A stretch of 32,018 nt of DNA from an uncultured Bacilli bacterium (GTDB lineage Bacteria; Bacillota_I; Bacilli_A; RF39; UBA660), in contig CALWAM010000003.1 in the NCBI GenBank assembly GCA_944373135.1, forward strand, positions 1 to 32,018, written 5' to 3'. This document shows, piece after piece, positions 1-20,701 of this stretch. The notes under the pieces were generated by a model that saw only the letters and a list, made by a program, of their open reading frames with translations, was not told where the DNA came from and made no database searches. Every line of letters starts with the position of its first letter. Position 1 is the stretch's first letter. The position numbers were made by a program, and so were the translations under genes.

Positions 1-671
1 TTAATATCATCATTTAAATTCATTTCATATAATATTTTACCATTTTTCAATGAAACTATCTCAACTCTATCAGTACTATCTTCGATTTTAACCATAGCAT
101 ATAAATCATCACTATATTCATTATCAGAAACAACCACATTAATATAATCAGCTGTAACACTATAAATTAGCTCTCCATCAGTGTTCATTATTCCTTCTTT
201 ATCATTTGCAAAATCAGAAAATTCAAAAAAACCGTTACCGATATAATTAAGGTCATAACCCTCTGGCGAAATCTTATTTAATTCATTATCATATAACTCA
301 CCACTAATATTCCAAATGCCCAAGTCTTCATAATATTCAGGAGCAAAAACACCAGCTTGATCCAAAACAACTTTTCCTTCAGCATCTATCATTTGATACC
401 AAAGAGAATCCGCGTCTTTCTTTACAACTGCATATTTACCATTAAAATCATACGCTATATCATACATCGGAGTAATTAACATCTTACCTTCACTAGTAAT
501 ATAGCCATATTTATCATCATCTTTAATTAAAATAGGATTATTAACAATTATATTTAAATTACTACTACTTTTCTCTTCCTTATTAAATAAAATGTACCCG
601 ACAATTAAACCAGTAACCAATACTATTCCAATTATAATAATTAGAAACAATTTATTGTTTATCTTTAGCAT
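1..671 (-). CDS. WG-repeat membrane protein, C-terminus cut by window edge
   Basis: About 223 residues are visible and the frame is open to base 1, so the C-terminus lies outside the window. Residues about 6-30 (LFLIIIIGIVLVTGLIVGYI) are one hydrophobic segment, probably a signal anchor. The rest is built of short repeats of the type D-K-Y-G-Y-I-T-S-E-G-K and M-I-D-A-E-G-K, which resemble WG repeats, found in surface or periplasmic proteins of unknown function. The ATG at 671 lies inside the end of the Asn-rich reading frame at 652-819 and has no good Shine-Dalgarno site. Translation may therefore be coupled to that frame, or the two frames may be one gene broken by a one-base shift. The function is not known. 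The reading frame is certain; the start is not. Confidence 0.7.
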   Translation of the reverse strand, partial: MLKINNKLFLIIIIGIVLVTGLIVGYILFNKEEKSSSNLNIIVNNPILIKDDDKYGYITSEGKMLITPMYDIAYDFNGKYAVVKKDADSLWYQMIDAEGKVVLDQAGVFAPEYYEDLGIWNISGELYDNELNKISPEGYDLNYIGNGFFEFSDFANDKEGIMNTDGELIYSVTADYINVVVSDNEYSDDLYAMVKIEDSTDRVEIVSLKNGKILYEMNLNDDI

Positions 672-819
672 TCAAATTAACTGCATTATTACTGTTATCC
701 ATACTTAAGTTAAGATAATTTTTATTTAAAATTTCCGATTGATTATTCATATTATTAATATTATTATTTATATCAGTATTCATATTATTTATTTGATTAT
801 CATTTAAACTATTATTCAT
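652..819 (-). CDS. Asn-rich 55-residue peptide, possibly the 5' part of the WG-repeat gene
   Basis: ATG at 819 opens a 55-codon frame ending in TAA at 652. About one third of its residues are Asn (for example INNNINNMNNQ is the style of the sequence), and it has no membrane segment or recognisable domain. It lies 12 bp after the zinc-ribbon gene and overlaps the WG-repeat frame by 20 bases in the +1 frame. The neighbouring zinc-ribbon protein carries a similar Asn/Gln-rich linker just before its membrane segments. This peptide could therefore be the linker of the WG-repeat protein, separated by an indel near 652-671. The Shine-Dalgarno site is weak. It is either a separate small protein or half of a frameshifted one. 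Confidence 0.4.
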   Translation of the reverse strand: MNNSLNDNQINNMNTDINNNINNMNNQSEILNKNYLNLSMDNSNNAVNLNAKDKQ

Positions 820-18424: not shown

Positions 18425-20398
18425 TTAAAATATTTTCAAACATTTTTCTAAAATCTTAGCTTCAGTAAATCCAAAATAATCTAAAACTTGATCTTTATGG
18501 CCACTTAACCCAAAACGATCTAAACAAATCATTTTATCTTCTGTAGTAAAATCTCCCCAAGAATAATGACTTCCTGCTTCAATCACTACCACCTTAACAT
18601 TATCTGGAATAACACTTTTTTGATATTCCAAATTTTGTTTTTTAAAAAGTTCAATAGAAACCATGCTTACTAACCTAACATTTTTTCCTCTAACTTTTAA
18701 ATCATCAATAACTTTTGCTGCTAAATTTACTTCACTACCAGTAGCAATTATTACCCCATCACATGGTTTTTCTTCTCCGATAACATAACCGCCGAATTTT
18801 ACTTTAGTCGCATCACTGCCCTTAATAATTGGCAATTCATTTTTAGAAATCACGAGTGCTACTGGGTCATTATTATTTAAGATATTCTCCCACGAACCAA
18901 TAACTTCATTTATATCAGCCGGACGATAAACAACTAAATTAGGAATTGACCTAAGCATTAATAACTGTTCAATCGGTTGATGAGTCGGCCCATCCTCTCC
19001 TACAGCAATCGAATCATGAGTAAAAATATAAATAGCTGGAACTTTCATTAATGCTGCTAATCTAATAGATGGTAACTGATAATTAGAAAAACTTAAAAAA
19101 GTACTACAATATGCTCTTAAATTTAATAAAGATAATCCATTTGTGATTGCTGCCATCGCATGTTCACGTACACCGTAATAAATATTTCTACCACCATAAT
19201 TATTTCTTGAAAAATCATCTTCTTTTACTAAATTAGTTTTACATGAAGATCCTAAATCTGCACTTCCTCCCAATATAAATGGTGTACGGCTAGCAATTAT
19301 ATTCATAATTTTAGAATTAGATTCTCGTAATTCTTCTACATAATTATCGGCAATTTTAAAATTATCACTTCTAAAATTTAAAGAAATATCTCCATTATCA
19401 AAAAAAGTAATTAATCTTTGAATTTCTGACAATTCGGTTTTTTTAACTTCACTATAATATTCATACCATAATTTATATTTTTTACTTACGCGATCATTAA
19501 TTATCTTTCTAAAATTATCAATATCTTCTTCTATAACTTCTAATCGCTTAGTATCGATCTTCATCATTCTTCTTAAATTATCTAAATCATCCTTAGATAG
19601 CGGACTACCATGGACAATATTAGTCCCTTGATTAAAACTTCCTTTACCTATTATAGTCTTAATTTCAATTATAGATGGTTTATTGGTCACTCTTTTAGCT
19701 CTTGTTATCGCTTTATTAATAGCTAAAACATCGTCCCCATCTTTAACATACTCTACATGCCAGTTACAAGCATCAAATCTTTTTAAAAGATCTTCTTTAA
19801 CACTTTTACTTTTTTTGCCATCTAAAGTAACATCATTAGAATCATATAAAACAATAAGTTTGCCTAATCCATACAAACCAGCAATTGAAGCGGCTTCATA
19901 ACTTATACCTTCCATTAAATCGCCATCGCCACACAAAACATAAGTATAATAATCAATTAACTTTTGATTTTTTATTTCTTTAGATACTAAATTAGCTAAA
20001 TATCTTTCTCCCATTGCTATACCAACTGCGGTAGCTAATCCTTGCCCAAGAGGACCTGTTGTTACATCAACTCCTGGTGTAATACCGTATTCTGGATGAC
20101 CTGGAGTTTTAGAATTAATACTTCTAAAATGTGCTATATCTTCTAAATCAATATCATAACCGGCTGCATAAAGTGTTGCATATAACAAGGCTGAGCCATG
20201 TCCTGCAGAGAGAATAAATCGATCACGATTAAACCAATTTGGATTTTGAGGATTAATATTTAAATGATTAGCAAATAAAGTATACATAATTGGAGCTGCC
20301 CCCAGCACAATTCCTGGATGCCCACTTTTGGCATTACTAATCATATCAACCCCAAGCAATTTAATAGTATTAATAATATTTTTTACGTTATCATTCAT
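18425..20398 (-). CDS. tkt: Transketolase
   Basis: The 657-residue enzyme moves two-carbon units between sugar phosphates in the non-oxidative pentose phosphate pathway, using thiamine diphosphate and magnesium. Visible motifs are SGHPGIVLGAAP, PGHPE, TGPLGQGLATAVG, the ThDP-binding CGDGDLMEG, and YGVREHAMAA with the Glu that activates the cofactor, plus THDSIAVGEDGPTHQPIEQL. Length is normal. An in-frame ATG further upstream (20434) would add 12 residues, but AAAGGGG before the ATG at 20398 and the family's usual N-terminus support the shorter form. It is followed by sirA and yneF. Confidence 0.95.
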   Translation of the reverse strand: MNDNVKNIINTIKLLGVDMISNAKSGHPGIVLGAAPIMYTLFANHLNINPQNPNWFNRDRFILSAGHGSALLYATLYAAGYDIDLEDIAHFRSINSKTPGHPEYGITPGVDVTTGPLGQGLATAVGIAMGERYLANLVSKEIKNQKLIDYYTYVLCGDGDLMEGISYEAASIAGLYGLGKLIVLYDSNDVTLDGKKSKSVKEDLLKRFDACNWHVEYVKDGDDVLAINKAITRAKRVTNKPSIIEIKTIIGKGSFNQGTNIVHGSPLSKDDLDNLRRMMKIDTKRLEVIEEDIDNFRKIINDRVSKKYKLWYEYYSEVKKTELSEIQRLITFFDNGDISLNFRSDNFKIADNYVEELRESNSKIMNIIASRTPFILGGSADLGSSCKTNLVKEDDFSRNNYGGRNIYYGVREHAMAAITNGLSLLNLRAYCSTFLSFSNYQLPSIRLAALMKVPAIYIFTHDSIAVGEDGPTHQPIEQLLMLRSIPNLVVYRPADINEVIGSWENILNNNDPVALVISKNELPIIKGSDATKVKFGGYVIGEEKPCDGVIIATGSEVNLAAKVIDDLKVRGKNVRLVSMVSIELFKKQNLEYQKSVIPDNVKVVVIEAGSHYSWGDFTTEDKMICLDRFGLSGHKDQVLDYFGFTEAKILEKCLKIF

Positions 20399-20422
20399 AA
20401 ATAAAGCCCCTTTACTATAATT

Positions 20423-20431
20423 AGTATAACA
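20423..20431 (-). promoter_or_regulatory. Extended -10 promoter of tkt
   Basis: TGTTATACT on the minus strand, about 25 bases before the tkt start, matches TG-N-TATAAT with one change. There is no clear -35. It lies just after the stop of the 49-residue membrane peptide, so tkt can be expressed without SOS induction, while read-through from the SOS promoter is also possible. Confidence 0.45.
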
Positions 20432-20454
20432 CACCTACTTTATTTTTACTACCT

Positions 20455-20604
20455 TTATTCATGAACACTTATATTATTATAAATGTAATTACCTCCTTCC
20501 ATATTATTTAAATATTTATAACGATAATTAACACATAAAATAATTATTATAATCACACTACAAAATAACAATCCTTCCATATTATTTTTAATAACTTCTT
20601 TCAT
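20455..20604 (-). CDS. 49-residue membrane peptide, LexA-controlled, at the yneA position
   Basis: The frame runs from ATG at 20604 to TAA at 20455, with GAGGTGAC five bases before the start. The peptide has a basic N-terminus (MKEVIKNN), one membrane segment (about residues 11-25, GLLFCSVIIIIILCV) and a short Tyr/Asn-rich tail; MEG(G) occurs twice. Its promoter is TTGACA-17-TAAAAT with a LexA box (CGAACAAATGTTTT) filling the spacer, so strong SOS control is expected. In B. subtilis the gene divergent from lexA and before tkt is yneA, an SOS cell-division inhibitor with one membrane segment and a LysM domain; S. aureus has SosA there. This peptide lacks LysM and is half as long. I infer a minimal SOS division inhibitor; that function is not shown by sequence similarity. 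Confidence 0.78.
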   Translation of the reverse strand: MKEVIKNNMEGLLFCSVIIIIILCVNYRYKYLNNMEGGNYIYNNISVHE

Positions 20605-20624
20605 AGTTAGTCACCTCAGTTATC

Positions 20625-20653
20625 ATTTTAATAAAAACATTTGTTCGTGTCAA
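20625..20653 (-). promoter_or_regulatory. SOS promoter of the 49-residue membrane peptide
   Basis: TTGACA (20653-20648), 17 bases, TAAAAT (20630-20625). The 17-base spacer begins with the complete LexA-type box. Start of transcription is expected near 20618. Confidence 0.88.
20634..20647. promoter_or_regulatory. LexA box 1
   Basis: CGAACAAATGTTTT on the minus strand, against the Bacillus LexA consensus CGAAC-N4-GTTCG: the first half is perfect and the second has two changes. It lies between the -35 and -10 of the membrane peptide promoter, where bound LexA would block RNA polymerase. Confidence 0.85.
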
Positions 20654-20661
20654 TTATCATT

Positions 20662-20675
20662 TGAACAAATGTTTG
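20662..20675. promoter_or_regulatory. LexA box 2
   Basis: TGAACAAATGTTTG, near-palindromic, with one change per half from the Bacillus consensus. It is centred 28 bp from box 1 and overlaps the -35 regions of both possible lexA promoters, consistent with autoregulation. Confidence 0.85.
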
Positions 20676-20701
20676 ACTTTTTTACATTTTTTTGTTAAAC
20701 T
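20673..20701 (+). promoter_or_regulatory. lexA promoter
   Basis: TTGACT (20673-20678), 17 bases, TAAACT (20696-20701). An alternative, TTGAAC (20661-20666) with TACATT (20683-20688) and a 16-base spacer, leaves a longer leader and may be the real one. LexA box 2 overlaps the -35 in either case. Confidence 0.6.

Follow-up and report, generated by a model that had tools for sequence, protein, structure and literature searches.

The window, a 32,018-nt stretch of an uncultured Bacilli genome, contains a short reading frame that is divergent from lexA and is followed by the transketolase gene tkt (Table 1). A frame with a ribosome-binding site, one membrane segment, a perfect promoter and a LexA box in the promoter spacer had been described here in a sequence-only reading, and all of these elements are present in the sequence. 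The same reading had placed the gene at the position of yneA and sosA, between lexA and tkt, which agrees with the arrangement in the window. The strict pattern GAACAWWTGTTY occurs three times in the whole 892-kb genome: twice as the lexA/peptide boxes and once within a gyrA-like frame. In a search of its own genome, the window peptide was matched by the family HMM with an E-value of 1.8e-14.

Table 1. Features of the lexA/peptide locus (window positions) and homologues of the peptide in phage-like sequences (positions within each locus)
Feature	Position	Strand	Basis or remark
49-aa single-helix membrane peptide MKEVIKNNMEGLLFCSVIIIIILCVNYRYKYLNNMEGGNYIYNNISVHE	20455..20604	-	ORF list; HMM; AF2; start codon ATG at 20604
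Ribosome-binding region of the peptide gene TAACTGAGGTGACTAACT	20605..20622	-	read in sequence
Peptide promoter TTGACA-17-TAAAAT	20625..20653	-	perfect; read in sequence; TTGACA 20653-20648, 17-nt spacer, TAAAAT 20630-20625
LexA-like box 1 CGAACAAATGTTTT	20634..20647	-	entirely within the peptide-promoter spacer
LexA-like box 2 TGAACAAATGTTTG	20662..20675	+	overlaps lexA -35
lexA promoter TTGACT-17-TAAACT	20673..20701	+	read in sequence
lexA, 206 aa	20720..21340	+	ITAGSP cleavage-site context, SGESM serine and TLKRF lysine motifs, by eye
tkt (transketolase)	18425..20434	-	same strand as the peptide gene and 3' of it
Phage-region homologue	L312:573-725	-	HMM match
Phage-region homologue	L310 ~505-675	-	HMM match
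Phage-region homologue	L309:389-574	+	HMM match
Phage-contig homologue	L317:282-449	+	IMG/VR
Phage-contig homologue	L319:2983-3138	+	IMG/VR

Conservation and regulation of the peptide gene

The family sampled consisted of RF39-like gut Bacilli (which we take to be the GTDB order RF39) and was represented by 386 genomes from 150 genera, mostly of 0.6-1.9 Mb; the named relatives were MAGs labelled uncultured Bacilli, Mycoplasmatota, Erysipelotrichaceae, or Candidatus Ventrenecus. Relatives of lexA were found in 350 of these 386 genomes. A single rule, based on an ATG, a ribosome-binding sequence, a length of 24-75 aa and a hydrophobic 15-mer on the upstream side of lexA, called a divergent membrane peptide at 181 of the 195 unique lexA loci (about 150 genera); as controls, the same rule gave calls in 0.8% of dinucleotide shuffles and at none of the 195 loci on the opposite strand. 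By inspection, the candidate at L190 (27 aa, no box) was judged a probable false positive of the ORF finder. At L240, a peptide that is present although the rule missed the locus was added by eye. In the less biased set of genomes G000-G058, in which most genera are represented by a single genome, the peptide was tallied in 41 of the 51 assessable genomes. Peptide lengths were mostly 42-52 aa, with a median of 47. The genes located 3' of the peptide differed between loci (tkt, polA, miaB, a GT28-like gene, and others), tkt being found downstream at no fewer than 51 of the 195 loci.

The frame is not broken in these relatives and is under purifying selection, with a median dN/dS of 0.34 (209 pairs) and a conserved membrane segment; a lack of conservation and a frame broken in relatives were among the refuting conditions that the sequence-only reading had named, and both results support that reading. 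In close pairs, substitutions at codon positions 1, 2, and 3 were distributed as 66:26:143, and the same-genus pair G001/G002 exhibited a dN of 0.08 and a dS of 0.28. The window frame is thus a real, conserved gene. That it might be an accidental or artefactual frame in AT-rich intergenic DNA, as its shortness and AT-richness could suggest, is ruled out by the conservation, the shuffles, the codon-position pattern, and the relocated and phage copies described below, and we give this explanation practically no weight. The peptide family has so far been unannotated, and its size would conceal such genes from gene callers.

A LexA-like box was found 20-70 nt 5' of the ATG at 179 of the 181 loci, versus 73 of 1543 background windows. 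At loci without the peptide, usually just the lexA-proximal box was left. In G039, the peptide gene has moved from lexA to a site among other genes and retains TTGACAAGAACAATGGTTCG; in this copy, TTGACA is followed by AGAACAATGGTTCG. Moreover, of 12 family genomes inspected at recA (L325-L336), 11 have the same box upstream of that gene, which independently supports its identity as a LexA box. On these computational grounds, the peptide gene can be regarded as established to be under LexA-box control.

In the recA upstream regions (11 of the 12 loci), the box, CGAACAAATGTTTG, was well conserved and mostly located about 80 nt 5' of the start. RecA (PF00154) was identified in 54 of the 58 family genomes, and it was not found in the window genome (G000, 91% complete) or in the same-genus genome G002 (64% complete). 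Its absence from these two genomes could reflect assembly gaps or a real loss, the latter of which would leave LexA without its activator.

Peptide anatomy and natural short forms

For the window peptide, AlphaFold2 predicted one helix (residues 9-36) and a disordered tail, with a mean pLDDT of 73.6. The peptide stops about 23 residues beyond the helix. Across the family, the N-terminal flank carried a charge of about +3.1 and the C-terminal flank a charge of -0.6, the former being the more positive in 155 of the 162 members, which indicates that the N-terminus should be inside; for the window peptide taken alone, the charge rule is ambiguous. The predicted topology is thus a single membrane helix with the N-terminus inside. 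LysM is absent from the window peptide, as had been read from the sequence: Pfam gave no match, the YneA model NF010723 found none in the window's own genome or by hmmscan, and no family in Pfam, NCBIfam, or PHROGs fits the peptide.

The conserved unit consists of a basic N-terminal tail, one helix, and a juxtamembrane motif, Y-x12-R-x3-L, followed by a variable outer tail. The R-x3-L-[N/D/E] part of the motif is conserved in the family, in which there is no 40-residue outer segment. In subfamily A, aligned as 75 gapless windows anchored on [NSC]-x-R...[LIMV], the most conserved positions were a tyrosine in the helix (71 out of 75) and then N/S, R, L/I, and N just past the helix, the invariance of R arising by construction since the windows were anchored on that residue. 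In subfamily C, which was aligned separately with no anchor, Y15, R28, and L32 were invariant and had the same spacing as in A. Profile comparison showed that subfamilies A and C are related (95.8%, E-value 7e-9) and, less surely, subfamilies A and B (86%). Evidence that conservation follows a helical periodicity in the membrane segment was suggestive only (p = 0.08). Many members end in a hydrophobic C-terminus (e.g., VVALGD, IAMNK), which could, by analogy with SosA, serve as a protease tag; the last 10 residues of SosA play a role in turnover (PMC6851548).

A helix of this kind could also belong to an SOS-induced membrane-depolarising toxin, which would slow growth and favor persistence with no specific divisome partner; the length of about 45 aa, the single helix, and the LexA control are indeed shared with TisB and DinQ of Escherichia coli. 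These are type I toxins with antisense RNAs, which act on membrane energetics and are not lexA-divergent. The peptide described here, in contrast, has an uncharged helix, conserves specific Y, N, R, and L residues in or near that helix rather than amphipathicity, and keeps a fixed place beside lexA, and we consider a toxin of the TisB/DinQ kind unlikely.

Several short forms were observed. In three genomes of one genus (g86; L202, L213, and L308), a 34-residue form ends in [RK]-x-KYL-[NS]-A and stops directly past the juxtamembrane motif; these genes have LexA-like boxes and dN/dS values of 0.1-0.4. A 30-residue form was found in two related genomes, and forms of 25, 28, and 35 residues at single loci. 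Because the 34- and 30-residue forms are under selection, some lineages can do without the outer tail, and the core usually consists of the helix and the juxtamembrane motif; the forms of 25-30 residues could be genes on their way to loss. The earlier suggestion that the membrane segment alone carries the function therefore holds as regards the outer tail in those lineages and is otherwise too strong: the juxtamembrane motif is conserved as strongly as the helix, and the membrane segment of B. subtilis YneA, without LysM, localises and does not block division (PMC13396833).

Losses and phage copies

An HMM search across the class (395 genomes) yielded no credible match beyond the peptide's own family; three marginal matches, located within frames of 386-666 aa, were discarded. 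In another family of the class (L158-L160; genomes of 2.7-3.0 Mb), different short LysM-less membrane peptides (57 aa in L160) were observed upstream of lexA, where yneA would lie, with a ynzC-like gene adjoining. The peptides of L159 and L160 were rejected as family members, as they gave no score with the family HMM.

Within the family, about 20% of genera (10 out of 51, by tally) lack the peptide next to lexA, which indicates that the peptide is dispensable. No gene explaining the loss was found for the peptide-less lexA loci (L009, L070, L071, L096, L098, L151, L154, L155, L181, L215, L243, L277, L287, and L297). G010, G045, and G058 hinted that peptide loss might track the loss of a SpoVE/FtsW-like SEDS gene. 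This link was rejected once the lexA loci of the other sampled genomes had been inspected, on account of genomes with the gene and no lexA-adjacent peptide (G012, G016, G017, G020, G021, G027, and G037) and of others with the peptide and the gene seemingly missing (G007, G008, G034, G035, G040, G042, G047, and G048). In G010, a SEDS (FtsW/SpoVE-like) gene appears to be divided into two parts separated by about 3.7 kb (L267; G010:C14:16200-21300), with a serine recombinase-like gene between them, as if an integrative element had interrupted it.

Homologues of the peptide are also present in phage early regions, which is a new observation. Starting from HMM matches lying away from lexA, we reached three phage-like MAG regions with a homologue, in G037, G024, and G164, the last being the weakest of these cases. 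The G037 homologue is located between phage-repressor-like and primosomal-like genes, and this genome has no lexA-adjacent copy. Two further distinct phage contigs were found in IMG/VR, L317 and L318/L319, the latter pair being one phage seen twice, in which the peptide is followed by an Erf/Rad52-like annealing protein, an exonuclease, and an SSB. HMM E-values of the phage homologues ranged from 1.6e-15 to 1.4e-5, versus 0.11 for the best shuffled decoy, and the core G-V-I-[IV]-L-N-A-R-F-E-Y-L-N is retained in L317, L319, and G037. A tighter viral search recovered the same viral loci, and the INPHARED phages contained no match to the peptide. L320 was rejected as a phage homologue, its match sitting among unrelated frames. 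For the three MAG phage-region copies, the 200 nt upstream contained no LexA-like box, which suggests that early phage promoters probably drive the phage copies.

Carriage by prophages would be explained if the peptide were an SOS-induced exclusion peptide that blocks DNA entry of superinfecting phages. The phage and prophage copies do lie in early regions, and one prophage copy weakly matches a "superinfection exclusion Sie-like" PHROG (E-value 0.001); however, out of the 177 residues of that profile, just a membrane segment is matched, no such match was seen for the other phage copies, and the LexA control of the host copies points to DNA damage rather than to phage entry. Overall, we regard phage exclusion as highly unlikely.

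Proposed function and comparison with known systems

We consider it probable that the peptide is induced in the SOS response and inhibits late division in the manner of YneA and SosA; its helix and motif would dock on the late divisome, most likely on FtsW. In this model, LexA would repress the gene for a minimal bitopic membrane peptide with its N-terminus inside. After DNA damage, RecA would prompt LexA self-cleavage, the divergent lexA and peptide promoters would open, and the peptide would build up in the membrane. Its helix and the Y-x12-R-x3-L motif would then dock on a late-division membrane protein, with the septal synthase FtsW as the likeliest candidate, and septum closure would be stalled until the peptide is diluted or degraded. 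Docking on FtsW with inhibition by the helix and the motif is proposed because the peptide has both the targeting part and the juxtamembrane motif. Each of the 58 sampled genomes carries SEDS (FtsW/RodA-type) genes and thus possesses the proposed target, and a peptidoglycan wall has been predicted in most RF39 species (PMC10868615). The homologues in phage early regions also fit a division blocker, since a division block is a known early function of phages: Kil of phage lambda, likewise an early small phage protein, blocks host division (PMC3961180), although it targets FtsZ/ZipA, whereas the phage copies described here are homologous to an SOS peptide of the host.

Several points count against the inhibitor reading. 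The YneA helix without LysM fails to inhibit, and SosA needs its outer residues, of which the window peptide has only about 20 and the natural short forms almost none. The weak helical periodicity, the lack of the peptide beside lexA in 10 of 51 genera, the missing NCBIfam match, and the failure to find recA in the window genome and its same-genus neighbour also weigh against it. A stronger version of the proposal, in which the helix and one motif suffice to silence a septal synthase (LysM-free, in 30-34 residues) and phages of these bacteria took the host peptide up into their early operons to arrest host division during infection, is possible and, in our view, somewhat less likely than not.

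The peptide might instead be a small SOS regulator of another membrane protein, such as a protease adaptor, a transporter, or a stress sensor, with no part in division. Small one-helix proteins are generally known often to modulate larger membrane proteins, and the target is not readable from sequence. This reading is nevertheless improbable given the position between lexA and tkt, where the division inhibitors yneA and sosA lie; to our knowledge, the characterised genes at this position in Bacilli inhibit division.

One-helix SOS division inhibitors are known from a small number of model species, and in YneA the role of the helix is confined to targeting, inhibition being due to LysM. For the question of how a membrane helix blocks FtsW, a family of about 150 genera in which the outer part has been repeatedly trimmed, in one genus as far as the juxtamembrane motif, represents a natural deletion series, and the peptide is a genetically encodable candidate FtsW ligand. 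In addition, a reduced, uncultured gut lineage gains a candidate DNA-damage checkpoint, and phages are shown to carry a homologue of a host SOS peptide.

Among the known systems, SidA of Caulobacter crescentus, an SOS-induced one-helix late-division inhibitor of about 29 aa, belongs to an unrelated lineage and occupies another genomic position. Binding to FtsW TM7 has been modelled for SosA, ChiZ, and SidA, the latter on the opposite side of TM7 (PMC13396833). YneA of Bacillus subtilis (NCBIfam NF010723/PRK14125) resembles the peptide in being lexA-divergent, in its LexA-box promoter with tkt nearby, and in having one N-in membrane helix, which is predicted for the peptide here. YneA binds TM7 of FtsW via its helix and blocks septal synthesis, LysM being required for inhibition (PMC13396833). 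The peptide is about half the length of YneA and, by the LysM criterion, is not a YneA.

As far as it can be read, the peptide would act like YneA and SosA. SosA of Staphylococcus aureus is also lexA-divergent and LexA-controlled, with one helix and no LysM (PMC6851548); the lack of LysM is therefore not new in itself. SosA has a conserved stretch just outside the membrane, with required residues (Y40/E41 and D44/H45) (PMC6851548), to which the juxtamembrane motif found here may be comparable. However, SosA is 77 aa long with about 40 outer residues, and removal of 30 of these abolishes its activity (PMC6851548), whereas the peptide described here exists in 34- and 30-residue forms that are under selection and have almost no outer part.
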